64,000 bases of DNA from Mesorhizobium sp. CAU 1732 (GTDB taxonomy: Bacteria; Pseudomonadota; Alphaproteobacteria; Rhizobiales; Rhizobiaceae): positions 162,001 through 226,000 of the forward strand of contig NZ_JBDQQR010000002.1 of NCBI RefSeq assembly GCF_039888675.1, in the 5' to 3' direction. Shown here piece by piece: positions 11,973-50,758 of the stretch (the first letter of the stretch is position 1; each line of letters begins with the position of its first letter). The position numbers and the translations under genes were made by a program. The notes under the pieces were generated by a model. That model did not search any database. It was given only the letters and a program-made list of their open reading frames with translations, and was not told where the DNA came from.

Positions 11973-12476
11973 ATGGCTGTCCGCCCGATCGTTCGCTATC
12001 CTGACCCCGCGCTGCGAAACCCATGCGCAGCCGTCGATACGTTCGACGGCGACCTCCGCGCGCTCGCCGACGATCTGCTCGACACCATGCGCGCGGCACC
12101 CGGCGTCGGCATCACCGCAGCTCATATCGGCGTTCTCAAGCGCGTAACGGTGATCGAACTGTCGCGGGAGGATGGCGTGCGCGTCTATGTGAATCCGATC
12201 ATCGAAAACGCGTCGGACGAGACGGCCCGCCACACCGAAGGCAGCGTTTCGATGCCGGGTGTGACCGACGAGATCGAACGCCCTGCCCGCATCCGTGTCC
12301 GCTACCAATCGCTGACCGGCGAGCACGTCACGGAGGATGCCGACGGCTTCCTCGCAACGTGCATCCAGCACGAAATCGACCAGCTCGACGGTATCTTCTG
12401 GCTCCAGCGCCTCTCGCGCCTGAAACGCGACCGCGCGATCAAGCGCTGGGAGAAGATGCTGCGCGCGCCGGGCTGA
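11973..12476 (+). CDS. peptide deformylase-like protein lacking two metal ligands
   Basis: 167-residue protein with the deformylase fold and all three motif positions, but with altered key residues. Motif 1 is GVGITAAHIG (canonical Q replaced by H51). Motif 2 reads EGSVS, with Ser91 where the metal-binding Cys should be. Motif 3 is HEIDQ, keeping His133 and catalytic Glu134 but with Gln137 for the second metal His. True deformylases bind Fe/Zn through Cys, His, His. An ordinary deformylase reaction is therefore doubtful, and a true def gene must lie elsewhere. It starts 5 bp after the methyltransferase. Confidence 0.88.
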   Translation: MAVRPIVRYPDPALRNPCAAVDTFDGDLRALADDLLDTMRAAPGVGITAAHIGVLKRVTVIELSREDGVRVYVNPIIENASDETARHTEGSVSMPGVTDEIERPARIRVRYQSLTGEHVTEDADGFLATCIQHEIDQLDGIFWLQRLSRLKRDRAIKRWEKMLRAPG

Positions 12477-12497
12477 TCGCTTCAACCCGGCCAAGCC

Positions 12498-13400
12498 CTA
12501 CAATTCGTACGTGGTCGTCTGGTAGACCTGATTGATCCAGTTGCCGAACAGCAGATGCGCGTGCGAGCGCCAGCGATTGAGCGGCGGGCGGCTCGGGTCG
12601 TCGTCGGGATAATAGCCGTGCGGCACGTCGATCAGTGTGCCGAGCGCGATGTCGCGGTCGTACTCTTCCTTGAGCGACGTCGAATCGTACTCGATATGAT
12701 TGAACATATAGAGCCGGTTGCCGGTCTTCTCCGCCAGCATGCAGGGGCCGGTCTCCTCCGATTCCATCAGCAGTTCCAGGCCCTGGCCGGACGGAATATC
12801 GCTGCTGCGAACCTCGGTCCACCGCGAGACGGGTATGGCGAAATCGTCGGAGAACCCGGTGAGATAGGGCGACGCGGGCGCATTGTTGCCATGGCGGAAA
12901 ACGCCGAACGCCTTTTGCTCCAGCGTGTATTTCGGAATGCGGTGGAAGTGCCAGGCAGCGGCCATCGCCCCCCAGCAGATGAAGAACGACGAATGCACGT
13001 TGGTCTTCGTCCAGTCGAGGATGCGCGTCAGTTCCTCCCAGTAGGTGACGTCCTCGAAAGCCAAAAGTTCGATCGGCGCGCCGGTGACGATGAAGCCGTC
13101 GAACTTGCGCGATTTGACCTCATCCCACGTCTGATAGAAGGAGATCAGGTGATCCTCGGACGTGTTCTTGGCCTTGTGGTTGCCGATGCGCACCAATGTA
13201 AGCTCGACCTGCAGCGGCGTGGCACCGATCAGCCGGGCAAACTGCGCCTCGGTCCTGATCTTGTTCGGCATGAGGTTGAGCAGACCGATCTGCAACGGCC
13301 GGATATCCTGCCGCAGCGCGGTCTGTTCGTCCATCACGGACACGCCCTCGCGCACCAGGATGTCGCGGGCGGGAAGCTGGTCGGGGATCTTGATGGGCAC
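12498..13400 (-). CDS. metA: homoserine O-acyltransferase MetA (probably acetyltransferase)
   Basis: Activates homoserine for methionine synthesis. The 300 residues match Met[15 protein letters not shown] at the N-terminus, the nucleophile Cys in [13 protein letters not shown] near residue 142, and the His/Glu pair in MFNHIEYD near 235. Family members use acetyl- or succinyl-CoA; most alphaproteobacterial MetA proteins use acetyl-CoA, so the name metAA may apply. The GTG at 13400 gives the canonical MPIKIP start. A SAM-II riboswitch and an intrinsic terminator lie upstream on the same strand, explaining repression by S-adenosylmethionine. Confidence 0.95.
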
Positions 13401-13448: not shown

Positions 13449-13467
13449 CAACGGACTTGTTGCAATC

Positions 13468-13524
13468 GGCCCTTTAGCAAGTTGTTTTACGTGGCTGCAA
13501 GCCGACCGGCCAAATCACCACGGA
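13468..13524 (-). promoter_or_regulatory. SAM-II riboswitch upstream of metA
   Basis: The minus-strand leader carries the SAM-II hallmarks in order: CGTGGTGATTTGG, CCGG, CTTGCAGCCACG, AAACAA, then TTGCTAAAGGG. CGTGG pairs with CCACG as P1, and the TGATTT and GCTAAAGGG segments form the pseudoknot that holds SAM. This is the standard metA control element in Rhizobiales. The full match to the motif and its placement make the call secure without a covariance search. Confidence 0.95.
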
Positions 13525-13611
13525 TCAGGCCTGCTTTTAGGACGCCGTGGACTTTGCGTCAACGCCAAACCTTGGTAGAGCAGGCCGCCTTTCAAAGCTG
13601 GATCGCCCACA

Positions 13612-30941: not shown

Positions 30942-31115
30942 CTATCGAACCAGTGCCATCGCTGCTGCGACGATGACGGCGAGCGCGAGAACACCGAGCG
31001 ATATCCACCAGAACCGTCTGGACTGTGCGGCCGACCGCCGGAAGCGCGGATCAGCAGCGCGATGATCCATCGCCATGCGAGCCGCATTCTGTACCGCGTG
31101 CATCTGCGAAATCAT
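30942..31115 (-). CDS. 57-residue single-pass membrane protein under an EcfG promoter
   Basis: Short protein: a basic, soluble N-terminal part (HAVQNAARMAMDHRAADPRFRRSAAQSRR) and one C-terminal helix (WWISLGVLALAVIVAAAMALV). The ATG at 31115 has GGAGAG upstream; another in-frame ATG lies 8 codons further up. A perfect EcfG promoter motif ends 37 bp before the start. It is therefore a likely general stress response member, possibly a tail-anchored protein. No homologous family is recognised. Confidence 0.72.
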   Translation of the reverse strand: MISQMHAVQNAARMAMDHRAADPRFRRSAAQSRRFWWISLGVLALAVIVAAAMALVR

Positions 31116-31151
31116 CACGTCTCTCCACCCAGATATCAACGTATGCGCAGG

Positions 31152-31176
31152 AACGTATTCCCCTACCTCATGTTCC
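31152..31176 (-). promoter_or_regulatory. EcfG promoter for the 57-residue membrane protein
   Basis: On the minus strand GGAAC (31176-31172), 16 bases, CGTT (31155-31152): an exact match to the alphaproteobacterial EcfG/SigT consensus, 37 bp before the ATG at 31115. Confidence 0.85.
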
Positions 31177-31198
31177 CAAAAAAATCTTCATGTTTGAT

Positions 31199-31223
31199 GG
31201 AACCACATGGTCAATCCTTCGTT
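31199..31223 (+). promoter_or_regulatory. EcfG promoter for the C-rich sRNA
   Basis: GGAAC at 31199-31203, 16 bases, CGTT at 31220-31223. No open reading frame follows; an RNA ending at an intrinsic terminator does. It is divergent from the neighbouring EcfG promoter at 31152-31176. Confidence 0.85.
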
Positions 31224-31229
31224 TAGGTG

Positions 31230-31358
31230 CATGTGGCCTGTTGTTTACAGCCCCTCCAAATCGCCCCCCCCCGACATGGATGGTGAGGCCACACACTGAC
31301 GATACCCCCCAATCGTCTCACTTCAGAGAAAGCTGGTCCACCGACCAGCTTTCTTTTT
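31230..31358 (+). ncRNA. candidate general stress response sRNA with two C-rich loops (GsrN-like)
   Basis: About 130 nt from the predicted EcfG start to the T-run. Helix TGTGGCCT (31232-31239) pairs with AGGCCACA (31286-31293). Inside it TCCA/TCG pair with CGA/TGGA around an all-C loop (31264-31271). A second hairpin GACGAT (31298-31303) with ATCGTC (31312-31317) presents ACCCCCCA. The 3' end is an 11-pair terminator hairpin (31328-31353) followed by TTTTT. No coding frame fits. Exposed C-rich loops under sigma-EcfG control recall Caulobacter GsrN; sequence homology to it is not shown here. Confidence 0.8.
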
Positions 31359-31431
31359 GTCTTGCGTCGGCGAAGGGTTGCGTTGGATAGCGGATTTATG
31401 CGCCACAGACCTGAAGCTGCGAGCAATCCGC

Positions 31432-32415
31432 TCACTCGATCTCGAAATTTCCGGCCGGAACCTCCAGGCGATAGTCGAGCCTGTCGCCGTCAAGGGTGAA
31501 TCCTGCCTTGCCTTCGAGCGACAACGGAACCACACGTTCCAGCGCAACGCTGCCGAACTGCTTGTGATCTTCAAGCCTGGAGGCATTCGTCCGTTCGCTC
31601 CAGGTCAGCACCAGAGTGCTTTCGCCATCCTCCCCCGCCTGAAGGATGCTCACCAGCGTGGCGACACCATGCGGTCGGGCAAGTGCCCCGTAGCTCATGG
31701 AATTGACGACGAGTTCGTGGAGGGCAAGGCCGATGTGCAACGCTGCGTTGGGATTGAGGTAGACGTCGATACCTTCGAAATGCACCCCGTCGTCCGCCTC
31801 GCCGCGAAAACGTGCAATCTGCCCTTCGACCAATGCGCTCAGCATGGCGCCGCGCCAGTTCGATGACGTCACCAAATCCTGGGACGAAGCGAGCGACTGG
31901 AGCCGGCCGCGGAAGCGATCGAGAAACACGTCGATCCGTGACGAATGACGCCCGGTCTGGGTCGCGATACTCTGAATGATCGCCAGCAAATTCTTGGAAC
32001 GATGGCTGACTTCACGCAGGAGCGTGCGCAGCGTCTGTTCGCGATGCTTCCGCTCGGTGATCTCGACGACCGTGGTGACGATGCCGTTTACAGTGCCGTC
32101 GTCGCCGTGGTCGGCATCGATCCACATGTCGAACCAGCGTCCGCCATCCGGCGTGTTGTCCCGGAACTCAAGCGTATCGGGCGTGCCCGTGGCAAGCACG
32201 GCACGCTTGCGGTCCATGATCCGGTCTGCCGACGCCAGGGGTAGAAACTGGCTGTCGATCTTGCCTGTAATGTCACCGCCGGCCCAGCCGTCCGGGATGT
32301 TTTGACCCCATTGAACCTGAAGATCGGGAGACTGGTAGAACACGATGATTCCCGCATTGCGCAACGCATGCAGGAGCCCTCTCCCCAAATCGACACTCTG
32401 CTTTGGGGATCGCAT
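31432..32415 (-). CDS. HWE/HisKA_2-type sensor histidine kinase
   Basis: 327-residue kinase with no obvious membrane segment. Residues 10-120 look like a PAS domain ending in the usual TTVVEITERKHREQ connector. The phospho-acceptor His138 is in REVSHRSKNLLAIIQSIA, and the N box is HELVVNSMSYGALARPHG near 233. Such kinases commonly phosphorylate PhyR or single-domain receivers in the general stress response. The position 0.6 kb from phyR makes it a PhyK-type candidate. The ATG at 32415 starts the family-like region. Confidence 0.87.
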   Translation of the reverse strand: MRSPKQSVDLGRGLLHALRNAGIIVFYQSPDLQVQWGQNIPDGWAGGDITGKIDSQFLPLASADRIMDRKRAVLATGTPDTLEFRDNTPDGGRWFDMWIDADHGDDGTVNGIVTTVVEITERKHREQTLRTLLREVSHRSKNLLAIIQSIATQTGRHSSRIDVFLDRFRGRLQSLASSQDLVTSSNWRGAMLSALVEGQIARFRGEADDGVHFEGIDVYLNPNAALHIGLALHELVVNSMSYGALARPHGVATLVSILQAGEDGESTLVLTWSERTNASRLEDHKQFGSVALERVVPLSLEGKAGFTLDGDRLDYRLEVPAGNFEIE

Positions 32416-32687: not shown

Positions 32688-32855
32688 TCAACCCACCCGA
32701 CGCATGAGGCCAGCGATCAACGAGATGACCAGGAATGCGAGGAAGATGAAGAAAAGGATCTGCGCCAGGCCGGCTGACGCACCGGCGATGCCGCCGAATC
32801 CCAACGCGCCGGCGATGATCGCGACAACGAGGAAAACAAGCGCCCAGTACAGCAT
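32688..32855 (-). CDS. DUF1328 small membrane protein (YtjA-like)
   Basis: 55-residue protein made of two hydrophobic helices separated by [32 protein letters not shown] is the classic DUF1328 start. The ATG at 32855 has a strong AAGGAG, and a perfect EcfG promoter lies immediately upstream. DUF1328 members are widespread stress-induced membrane proteins of unknown activity. It is the first gene downstream of phyR on the same strand. Confidence 0.92.
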
Positions 32856-32883: not shown

Positions 32884-32908
32884 AACGTCCATTGACAGTT
32901 TTTGTTCC
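32884..32908 (-). promoter_or_regulatory. EcfG promoter for the DUF1328 gene
   Basis: On the minus strand GGAAC (32908-32904), 16 bases, CGTT (32887-32884), 29 bp before the ATG at 32855. Confidence 0.88.
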
Positions 32909-32998: not shown

Positions 32999-33793
32999 TC
33001 AGGCCGCAGCCTTCGCCTGACGATCGAAAAAGAGTGCCTGGCTGATCAGGGCCTTGACCATATCGGGGTTAAACGGCTTGGTCACGAGGAAAGCCGGCTC
33101 CGGACGTTCACCCGTCAAAAGACGCTCCGGAAATGCTGTGATGAAAATGACCGGGACCGGCGCCGAGGCCAGAATCTCGTTCACGGCATCGATGCCGGAC
33201 GACCCATCGGCAAGCTGGATGTCGGCAAGGACCATCTTTGGCTTGGTGCTGGAAAACAGCGCGACGGCTTCCTTGTGGGTGCGCGCGGTGCCCACGACGC
33301 GGTGCCCGAGGCCTTCGACCATCTGCTCGATGTCCATGGCGATCAGCGGCTCATCCTCGATGATGAGAACGTCGGTAGCAACCTGACGCGAAATCTCGTC
33401 GCTGGCTTCCGAGAGAAGCGTGGAGAATTTCGAGACATCGACGCCGAGAACTTCTGCCGCCTCGGATTCGGAGAACCCCTCGACCGCCACAAGCAGGAAC
33501 GACTGGCGCGGAAGCGGTGCAAGCGCGGACAGGTTTGCCGCCGCGCGGCTTTCCCACGAAGGGCTGCTGTCGATATCAGGCACGCGAATGCTCACCGATG
33601 TGAAGAGCTTGGTGAAAACGCGGTAGAGAGCGATCCGATCGCTGGAGAGCTTCGGAAAAACGCTCACGTCTGCAATGATCGCCTCGAGCGTTGCAGCGAC
33701 CAAAGCGTCGCCACTCGCCTGTGAGCCGGTTACAGCGCGGGAAAAGCGCCTCAAAAATGGCAGATGCGGCGCGATCCGTGCGGACAAACTCAT
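32999..33793 (-). CDS. phyR: general stress response anti-anti-sigma response regulator PhyR
   Basis: 264 residues: an N-terminal sigma-like domain (about 1-130, with LPRQSFLLVAVEGFSESEAAEVLG resembling sigma region 4) fused to a C-terminal receiver (VLIIEDEPLIAMDIEQM onward). The phospho-acceptor Asp lies in VLADIQLADGSSG, followed by FITAFPERLL and the Lys in VTKPFNPD. When phosphorylated, PhyR sequesters NepR and frees EcfG. It diverges from nepR-ecfG, the canonical layout, with back-to-back EcfG promoters in between. Confidence 0.97.
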   Translation of the reverse strand: MSLSARIAPHLPFLRRFSRAVTGSQASGDALVAATLEAIIADVSVFPKLSSDRIALYRVFTKLFTSVSIRVPDIDSSPSWESRAAANLSALAPLPRQSFLLVAVEGFSESEAAEVLGVDVSKFSTLLSEASDEISRQVATDVLIIEDEPLIAMDIEQMVEGLGHRVVGTARTHKEAVALFSSTKPKMVLADIQLADGSSGIDAVNEILASAPVPVIFITAFPERLLTGERPEPAFLVTKPFNPDMVKALISQALFFDRQAKAAA

Positions 33794-33885: not shown

Positions 33886-33910
33886 GGAACGTTTTCCCGA
33901 CAGCCACGTT
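33886..33910 (+). promoter_or_regulatory. EcfG promoter for nepR-ecfG
   Basis: GGAAC (33886-33890), 16 bases, CGTT (33907-33910). Its -35 element lies only 8 bases from that of the phyR promoter, so RNA polymerases on the two promoters may compete. The leader to nepR is about 105 nt. Confidence 0.92.
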
Positions 33911-34021
33911 TGAATTTCCGACTGATCGTTCCGGTCCGCCGATCTGCGCTATTCGTGCGTTTCGCGTCGAGATTGGAGCAGCCGAAACCGGGCGGCGAAT
34001 TTTGGGGTGAAGAGACACAAT

Positions 34022-34228
34022 ATGAAGCCAAATATCCAAGCAGCTTCCGACGGGCATCTCAAGCCGGGACGAAGCGGTGAACCGCTCGGGTCGAATTCCG
34101 AGATCGGGCGCAAACTCAAGCAATATTATGACGAGATCGTTTCGGAAGATGTTCCCGACAGGTTCGCGGACCTGCTGAAGCAGCTCGAGAAGCGGGAAGA
34201 GTCCGACGCGTCTCGCGAAGGAGCATGA
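34022..34228 (+). CDS. nepR: anti-sigma factor NepR
   Basis: 68-residue anti-sigma factor that holds EcfG inactive. The conserved NepR core is IGRKLKQYYDEIVSEDVPDRFADLLKQLE (residues about 26-54), flanked by disordered-looking ends. The ATG at 34022 follows a GAAGAGA; a GTG 15 bases upstream is an alternative. The stop overlaps the ecfG start (ATGA), ensuring balanced synthesis of sigma and anti-sigma. Confidence 0.95.
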   Translation: MKPNIQAASDGHLKPGRSGEPLGSNSEIGRKLKQYYDEIVSEDVPDRFADLLKQLEKREESDASREGA

Positions 34229-34779
34229 CGATGGCGGATGGTTCGTCTTTCAAGAACGACCTGCTAAGCGCCATCCCGAGCTTGCGCGCCTTCGCGATGT
34301 CGCTGGCACAGAATGCCGACAAGGCAGACGATCTGGTCCAGGAAACACTGGTGAAGGCCTGGGACAAGCAGGCGTCGTTTCAGCCAGGCACGAATCTGAA
34401 GGCCTGGGTGTTCACGATCCTGCGCAACGAGTTCTATTCGCAGATGCGCAAGCGCGGACGCGAAGTGCAGGACAGCGATGGCGTCATCACGGCCCGTCTT
34501 GCGGTTCACCCGAGCCAGCAGGGATCCATGGACCTCGACGATTTCCGGGCAGCTCTCGAAACGTTGCCAGGCGATCAGCGCGAAGCGATCATCCTCATCG
34601 GTGCGTCGGGCTTTTCCTATGAGGAAGCCGCCGAGATTTGCGGATGTGCGGTCGGTACGATCAAGAGCCGGGTCAGCCGGGCGCGCGGCAGGCTTCAGGA
34701 AATCCTCAACGTGGCGGGTGAAGCCGACTACGGACCCGACGCGATCTCCTCTCAGGTCATGGGATCAAACGCCGCCTGA
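34225..34779 (+). CDS. ecfG: general stress response ECF sigma factor EcfG
   Basis: 184-residue ECF sigma factor. Region 2 is SLAQNADKADDLVQETLVKAWDKQASFQPGTNLKAWVFTILRN, and region 4 is LPGDQREAIILIGASGFSYEEAAEICGCAVGTIKSRVSRARGRL. It directs transcription from GGAAC...CGTT promoters, ten of which occur in this window. The start at 34225 has AAGGAG. Its last 28 bp overlap the convergent receiver gene. Confidence 0.97.
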   Translation: MTMADGSSFKNDLLSAIPSLRAFAMSLAQNADKADDLVQETLVKAWDKQASFQPGTNLKAWVFTILRNEFYSQMRKRGREVQDSDGVITARLAVHPSQQGSMDLDDFRAALETLPGDQREAIILIGASGFSYEEAAEICGCAVGTIKSRVSRARGRLQEILNVAGEADYGPDAISSQVMGSNAA

Positions 34780-35315: not shown

Positions 35316-36071
35316 ATGGCTGATATTCCGGTACAATCCGAGCGCAAATATTCGTGCGAGAAATGCCCGTTGATGCGCCGAAAACTGTTCCGGGACTTCA
35401 ACACGAAGGAGTTGTCGTTCGTTTCGCGCTTCAAGCGCGGCGAACTGAGCGTCGACAAGGGCGCCACAATTCTCTCGGAGGGAACACGCAACCCGCATCT
35501 TTATACGGTGCTCGTCGGATGGGGATTTCGGTACAAACTCCTGCCGGACGGGCGCCGGCAGATCGTCAACTTCGTCATGCCGGGCGATCTTGTCGGTCTC
35601 CAAGGCAGCCTGATGGGCGAAATGCAGCACTCGATCGAGGCGCTTTCGCCCATGACCTTGTGCGTGTTCGAGCGCGGGGAGTTGATGTCGCTCTACCACG
35701 AGCATCCCGAACTCGCTTATGACGTCACCTGGATTGCCTCGCGCGAGGAAAGCATGCTCGACGAGAACCTGTTGAGCGTCGGGCGCCGCACCGCCATCGA
35801 GCGCCTTGCCTATCTCGTCGCGTTCCTGGTGAGCCGGGCCAGCGCCGTGGGCCTCATCAACGGCGACACGCTCGAGCTTCCCATCACGCAGCAGCATGTG
35901 GCCGATACGCTCGGGCTATCGCTGGTTCACACCAACAAGACGGTGCGCAAGCTGATCGACCGCAAGATGCTGCGTTGGCGCGATCGGGGCTGCGAGGTAC
36001 TGGATATCGATGGCCTGACGACGCTGGCTCGCTGGGAAGGACCCGGCGAGACGATCCGCCCGTTCATCTGA
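35316..36071 (+). CDS. Crp/Fnr family transcriptional regulator
   Basis: 251 residues: a cyclic-nucleotide-binding-like beta barrel (about 35-140) and a C-terminal helix-turn-helix (LPITQQHVADTLGLSLVHTNKTVRKL near 190-215). Two N-terminal cysteines (YSCEKCPLM) are present, but there is no full Fnr-type four-Cys set, so an oxygen-sensing cluster is not supported. The Crp cAMP-contact motif is absent. Relatives often adjoin rhizobial stress loci. It has no EcfG motif upstream. Confidence 0.9.
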   Translation: MADIPVQSERKYSCEKCPLMRRKLFRDFNTKELSFVSRFKRGELSVDKGATILSEGTRNPHLYTVLVGWGFRYKLLPDGRRQIVNFVMPGDLVGLQGSLMGEMQHSIEALSPMTLCVFERGELMSLYHEHPELAYDVTWIASREESMLDENLLSVGRRTAIERLAYLVAFLVSRASAVGLINGDTLELPITQQHVADTLGLSLVHTNKTVRKLIDRKMLRWRDRGCEVLDIDGLTTLARWEGPGETIRPFI

Positions 36072-50610: not shown

Positions 50611-50639
50611 TTGCATTCGCAAGAGGCAGTGCCTATTTT
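50611..50639 (+). promoter_or_regulatory. sigma70-like promoter of the cuckoo-type sRNA
   Basis: TTGCAT (50611-50616), 17 bases, TATTTT (50634-50639), placing the transcript start near 50645, right at the first hairpin. Confidence 0.65.
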
Positions 50640-50644
50640 TGGAC

Positions 50645-50758
50645 TGTCGGTGATCTACCTCCTCCCAGAGAGCCGACACCCTGGCGCGGCGAACCTCCTC
50701 CCTTGTCGCGCTTCAGATTGACCCGCCGGACCTCCTCCCCCGGCGGGTTTTTCTTTTT
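50645..50758 (+). ncRNA. cuckoo-type sRNA with three CCUCCUCCC hairpin loops
   Basis: Three consecutive stem-loops each present CCTCCTCCC in the loop. Stem 1 is TGTCGG (50645-50650) with CCGACA (50673-50678), loop motif 50658-50666. Stem 2 is GCGCGGCGA (50684-50692) with TTGTCGCGC (50703-50711), loop motif 50694-50702. Stem 3 is ACCCGCCGG (50721-50729) with CCGGCGGGT (50740-50748), loop motif 50731-50739, followed by a T-rich tract, so the third hairpin is also the terminator. This is the architecture of alphaproteobacterial cuckoo RNAs (CcsR in Rhodobacter), whose anti-Shine-Dalgarno-like motif acts in stress responses. Confidence 0.92.

Follow-up and report, generated by a model that had tools for sequence, protein, structure and literature searches.

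In the 64,000-nt stretch of DNA analyzed here (the window; all coordinates count from its first letter), a real and well-conserved element lies beside the phyR-nepR-ecfG stress locus, and we consider it likely to specify a trans-acting small RNA (sRNA) of approximately 130 nt of the GsrN/ReC64 kind, driven by the sigma factor EcfG and using C-rich loops as pairing seeds. Judged by sequence comparison, the predicted sRNA of this Aquamicrobium-like organism probably belongs to that known kind of stress RNA. The conserved unit in relatives is a long C-rich loop that is predicted to stand open, not a small eight-C hairpin, and the window appears to fold part of this loop shut. A preliminary description of the element as a rhizobial functional counterpart of GsrN is partly supported by our analysis, being largely right but already proposed in print for ReC64 and by Tien et al. 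in 2018. Its remark that no gene was expected at this place was too strong because these same reports had placed RNAs there in other rhizobia.

The promoter, two C-loop hairpins, and terminator described for positions 31199 to 31358 are all present (Table 1). A near-consensus EcfG site in front, one feature expected of GsrN-like RNAs, occurs here as the exact match that had been claimed. Folding of plus-strand positions 31228 to 31361 gave −50.7 kcal/mol with a z score of −6.9, and none of 200 shuffled sequences folded as well; for the opposite strand, the fold was run on a longer segment (31190 to 31365) and had a z score of −2.8, with 2 of 200 shuffles as good. Some details of the preliminary description required adjustment. 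The eight-C loop assigned to hairpin 1 is a run of nine Cs (31264 to 31272), eight of which are unpaired in the minimum-energy fold, and the terminator, described with 11 pairs and a T-run, is present but folds with 14 pairs. As had been stated, the T-run does point away from the kinase gene, whose end is at 31432 on the opposite strand. An exposed C-rich loop near the 5' end, a further feature of GsrN-like RNAs, is also predicted, with a modeled unpaired probability of 0.88 for the nine Cs and 0.23 for the upstream CCCC at 31251.

Table 1. Predicted sRNA and neighboring features in the window
Feature	Positions	Strand	Basis or comment
EcfG-type promoter GGAAC-N16-CGTT	31199..31223	+	Exact match; same site before the RNA in relatives
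Predicted sRNA transcript	31229..31358	+	Start inferred from promoter spacing; fold z score; syntenic RNAs
Hairpin 1, closing helix and C-rich loop	31232..31293	+	Fold; helix kept, sequence turns over
Loop motif CCCCTCCAAATCGCCCCCCCCC, proposed recognition site	31251..31272	+	Comparison with relatives
Hairpin 2, loop ACCCCCCA at 31304-31311	31298..31317	+	Fold; not universal in relatives
Intrinsic terminator with T-run	31325..31358	+	Fold
Divergent EcfG-type promoter before small membrane protein gene 30942-31118	31152..31176	-	Promoter pattern
HWE histidine kinase with PAS domain, convergent neighbor	31432..32415	-	PF07536, PF08448
phyR, anti-sigma antagonist	32999..33793	-	PF22029, PF22233, PF00072
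EcfG-type promoter before nepR-ecfG	33886..33910	+	Promoter pattern
GGGGTGA at nepR ribosome-binding site, candidate pairing site	34004..34010	+	Partner UCGCCCC of loop 1; weak in this genome
nepR, anti-sigma factor	34022..34228	+	PF18557
ecfG, sigma factor, start overlaps nepR stop	34225..34779	+	PF04542, PF08281; sequence

No Rfam family reached its gathering score over 31199 to 31358. At a lax threshold, the sole plus-strand match was STnc450 (31314 to 31360; 21.6 bits against a cut-off of 37), which covers the terminator and the last part of hairpin 2. An EcfG promoter followed at 30 to 58 nt by six Cs was found once in the organism's own genome, at this element, and the reversed control was also found once.

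The neighbors of the element constitute the core of the general stress response: the HWE kinase gene, with which the RNA is convergent, a DUF1328 gene, phyR, nepR, and ecfG. The RNA lies approximately 1.6 kb from phyR, in keeping with the proximity to the sigT-phyR locus that marks GsrN-like RNAs, and it shares the ReC64 arrangement of a position downstream of a kinase at the ecfG-phyR locus with its own EcfG promoter. The pattern GGAAC-N16/17-CGTT occurs 11 times in the window against 1.17 expected. These eleven exact promoter-like sites span 28272 to 60736, and several form divergent pairs (31152/31199, 33853/33886, and 37207/37252). The DUF1328 gene (32688-32855, minus strand) is likewise preceded by an EcfG-type promoter (32884-32908).

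By BLASTn, the RNA matched its own genome alone (1 of 100), with no relative found in 99 other genomes; BLASTn misses this RNA because its loops are kept while its stems run free. We sought relatives by position in 80 named loci around phyR, searching past the kinase gene; 4 of these loci gave no kinase, and that of L080 is doubtful. Genus and family group names were inferred from the named loci. An EcfG promoter with a C-loop hairpin occupied the same position in all eight genomes of the genus (the window, L034, L033, L037, L112, L032, L035/L114, and L113). Among the 80 named loci, C-loop hairpins behind an EcfG-type promoter were present in 12 (L032-L037, L041, L044, L059, L085, L096, and L111), three of them with an imperfect promoter (AGTT for CGTT in L041 and L044; a GGAAC box alone with no −10 match in L096) and one, L037, with no recognized terminator. 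The other 68, mostly Mesorhizobium, lacked such an RNA here. A looser pattern of EcfG promoter plus six Cs was unspecific: it matched 85 of 297 genomes, and these positives were largely unrelated, but three further stress-locus cases (L155, L156, and L157) came from among them. We also scanned 60 other family loci, most from other genera, with a script demanding a promoter, an 80- to 190-nt transcript, a terminator, and unpaired C-runs, and 11 passed. The script missed L037, L041, L044, L096, and L156, which were scored positive by eye; negative loci were scored by the script and by one listing of the 80 named loci.

Two observations on promoters and related RNAs came from these searches. In L111, a tandem pair of EcfG-like promoters (12430-12534; spacing of 104 bases) precedes the Aquibium form of the RNA, and L197 likewise has two, 69 bases apart. 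Furthermore, a second syntenic C-loop RNA with an EcfG promoter occurs in L150, L151, L152, and L154 (genomes G150, G221, G154, and G176), with GACGGGC or AACGGGC pairing with its complement as the stem; phyR was not hit in these stretches. In G150 and G154, the RNA described here is absent from the phyR loci (L186 and L188). An RNA similar to the second kind is found in L153 in a different context, and a pattern search for the second kind in six genomes found none.

Comparison of relatives revealed that loop 1, approximately CCCYCCAAnCGCCCCCC, is the part kept. The strict loop pattern CCYCCAANCGCCCCCC matched 5 of 297 family genomes, each time in this RNA, and the reversed pattern never matched; the window loop has one extra A, which places it outside the strict pattern and not among the five. 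Over 10 non-redundant rows, the arms of hairpin 1 were 0.27 and 0.28 identical and the loop core 0.65. The loops and terminator line up in a MAFFT alignment and hairpin 1 does not, so we used arm swapping and pair tables instead of a covariance model. When arms were swapped among 14 genomes, own partners averaged −24.0 kcal/mol against −15.0 kcal/mol for swapped partners, and none of 10,000 permutations was as good. In only 7 of 14 rows did the own partner rank first among the 14; in L112, where the cut shortened the arm, it ranked 11th. With the loop core held open, all 11 rows formed 11 to 23 pairs around it, and each of the first 12 pairs, counted outward from the loop and not as an alignment-based covariation test, was represented by three to six pair types. 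Holding the core open gave a hairpin loop of 46 nt in the window; those of the 10 relatives were 19 to 27 nt long. The cost was zero in six rows, 0.9 to 5.1 kcal/mol in four, and 8.4 kcal/mol, the highest of the 11, in the window. The unpaired probability of C-runs was at least 0.61 across 14 rows, except for one window run. A lack of loop and stem conservation had been named in advance as grounds for rejecting the proposal; the loops are conserved and each row pairs with itself, but the stem sequence is without conservation.

This pattern of conservation bears on whether the transcript instead encodes a small stress peptide, which we regard as extremely unlikely. Plus-strand open frames do overlap the region (31025-31390), but relatives have predicted transcripts of 109 to 146 nt, and conservation is confined to the loops, with turnover in the stems. 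Considering the terminator, the element could mainly be a terminator or structured 3' region of the kinase gene and not a separate regulator. In several relatives, L112 and L035 among them, the terminator stem is preceded by an A-run and followed by a T-run, so the terminator could also stop kinase transcription. In the window, however, the T-run is confined to the plus strand, and L155 has the RNA, yet no kinase was found in its 9-kb stretch. A terminator also fails to account for the EcfG promoter and for the conserved C-loops, and we judge this explanation very improbable.

The number of C-loops proved to be variable. A long hairpin with a loop C-run of at least five was present in all 18 near loci, window included, as the second hairpin in L111, L156, and L157. 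Another hairpin with a C-run of at least four occurred in 13 of the 18 and was absent in L032, L033, L034, L037, and L113. The two recognition loops of the preliminary description, whose conservation in relatives it had offered as a check, therefore divide into a loop 1 that is kept throughout and a second C-loop that is not constant. Some distant forms (L201, L211, L216, L218, L227, and L240) have an extra C-loop in the terminator.

The comparison with relatives gives good support to the proposal that the predicted transcript is an EcfG-controlled stress sRNA that exposes C-rich loops. In this model, release of EcfG from NepR under stress would lead to transcription of the sRNA, whose stems would expose single-stranded seeds in one long C-rich loop and, in many cases, in an additional short one. 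The seeds would find partners in G-rich parts of mRNA leaders, for the most part close to ribosome-binding sites, and such pairing may raise or lower translation. The predicted pairing with G-rich ribosome-binding sites is plausible. The complement of loop 1, with at most three mismatches, has 79 sites in the own genome (one of them the RNA itself) compared with 20 for a reversed control, and the best sites apart from the RNA itself have two mismatches. We found no clear support for katG as a target: the peroxidase family is present in six of eight genus genomes with no common G-tract near the start, where several starts are unsure, and a GGGGGCG stretch precedes the katG gene of the own genome by 121 bases.

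The sRNA may also have a local target in nepR, in which case it would be a feedback arm of the stress switch. By this account, which we consider possible but unlikely, base pairing of a C-loop with the G-tract at the ribosome-binding site of nepR would prevent the anti-sigma factor from being translated and, through coupling, might do the same for ecfG. All 18 near loci had a G-run of at least four in the nepR ribosome-binding window, which reached at least five in 10 of them, compared with 12 of 89 loci without the RNA. Some loci are one genome reached twice (e.g., L099 and L199), so these counts, like those of the scripted scan and the tree test, are not independent, and an alternative choice of start codon gives 17 of 18. 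Among 16 other genes, the top G-run share in near loci was that of the kinase, at 7 of 17. In a ranking of leader pairing over 17 loci, which leaves out L156, nepR was the best-pairing leader in 7 against 1.6 expected, and the G-tract was the site in 6 of these 7. Furthermore, nepR-sigT mRNA co-eluted with GsrN in Caulobacter (PMC5869019), and beyond this remark our literature search found no account of sRNA control of nepR.

Other results weigh against the feedback account. G-runs can occur without the RNA: a crp-like gene (35316-36071, plus strand, in the window) has a run of at least four in 45 of 63 loci lacking the RNA and in 4 of 10 loci with it. For a tree test, we started from 146 loci and dropped 14 for a missing gene, no usable leader, or an identical row; among the remaining 132 rows, the nepR run was present in 19 of the 29 that have the RNA and in 13 of the 103 that lack it. 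After thinning to 95 rows, mainly Mesorhizobium, an independent-pairs test on the tree was unsupportive (six pairs, median p of 1). The nepR leader of the window itself ranks only 10th of 21, at −3.3 kcal/mol, and the run is missing in 10 of 11 more distant carriers of the RNA (11 of 11 in the scripted scan). Tien et al. also found no evidence for feedback on sigT (PMC5869019). The best local candidate for pairing, nepR, is only suggestive as judged from these sequences. We hold as doubtful the fuller proposal of a stress switch with its own RNA feedback arm, in which the EcfG-made C-loop RNA would pair with the nepR tract and reset the NepR:EcfG ratio, with joint retention of loop and tract across the Aquamicrobium, Aliihoeflea, Chelativorans, and Aquibium lineages despite drift in the stems and the remainder of the leader. 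The tract does make a specific feedback model testable.

Small RNAs of the stress response have been reported from several rhizobia. Eight intergenic regions that harbor sRNA genes are RpoE2-responsive in Sinorhizobium meliloti (PMC3616915), and Tien et al. in 2018 predicted C-loop GsrN-like RNAs beside rhizobial stress loci, naming putative homologues by promoter and position in Rhizobium etli, S. meliloti, Brucella, Agrobacterium, and others (PMC5869019). The main text of a review of rhizobial riboregulation (PMC7143759) names neither GsrN nor ReC64, and our literature search found no such RNA described for Aquamicrobium. Outside Caulobacter, little work has addressed the post-transcriptional side of the general stress response in alphaproteobacteria, and position, promoter, and loops together offer a route to finding more such RNAs. 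To what is in print, our analysis adds the loop-only conservation, the variable loop number, and the nepR tract.

Among known RNAs, alphaproteobacterial ar14 (Rfam RF02344) is also a small RNA but belongs to a separate locus, with no match at 31199-31358; the window holds a copy at 50639-50755 (plus strand, 66.2 bits), and a SAM-alpha riboswitch at 13454-13531 (minus strand, 76.3 bits). PmaR of Agrobacterium resembles the window RNA in its long stem and C-rich single-stranded loop that binds targets, whereas it lies between two hypothetical genes and the passages describing it give no EcfG dependence (PMC6234868). ReC64 of R. etli is likened to the window RNA by position and promoter alone, as a noncoding RNA downstream of a histidine kinase in the ecfG-phyR region with its own EcfG promoter, but its reported length is 88 nt, against approximately 130 nt predicted for the window RNA (PMC3892343). 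It was mapped downstream of the kinase gene tcrY by 5' RACE, with a reporter that was off in ecfG1 mutants (Jans et al. 2013, PMC3892343), gives a Northern band in stationary phase (PMC2881028), and is raised by salt in an RNA-seq study that predicts SigA and RpoH promoters for it (PMC4167512). GsrN pairs through its C-rich loop with katG mRNA (PMC5869019); the RNAs described here have one to three C-loops, and katG is without clear support as their target. BLASTn similarity to GsrN is described as confined to Caulobacteraceae, and the stress-locus position is common to GsrN-like RNAs and the window RNA, except in C. crescentus itself (PMC5869019). GsrN of C. crescentus and its predicted rhizobial homologues share with the window RNA an EcfG/SigT promoter and an exposed C-rich loop (PMC5869019).
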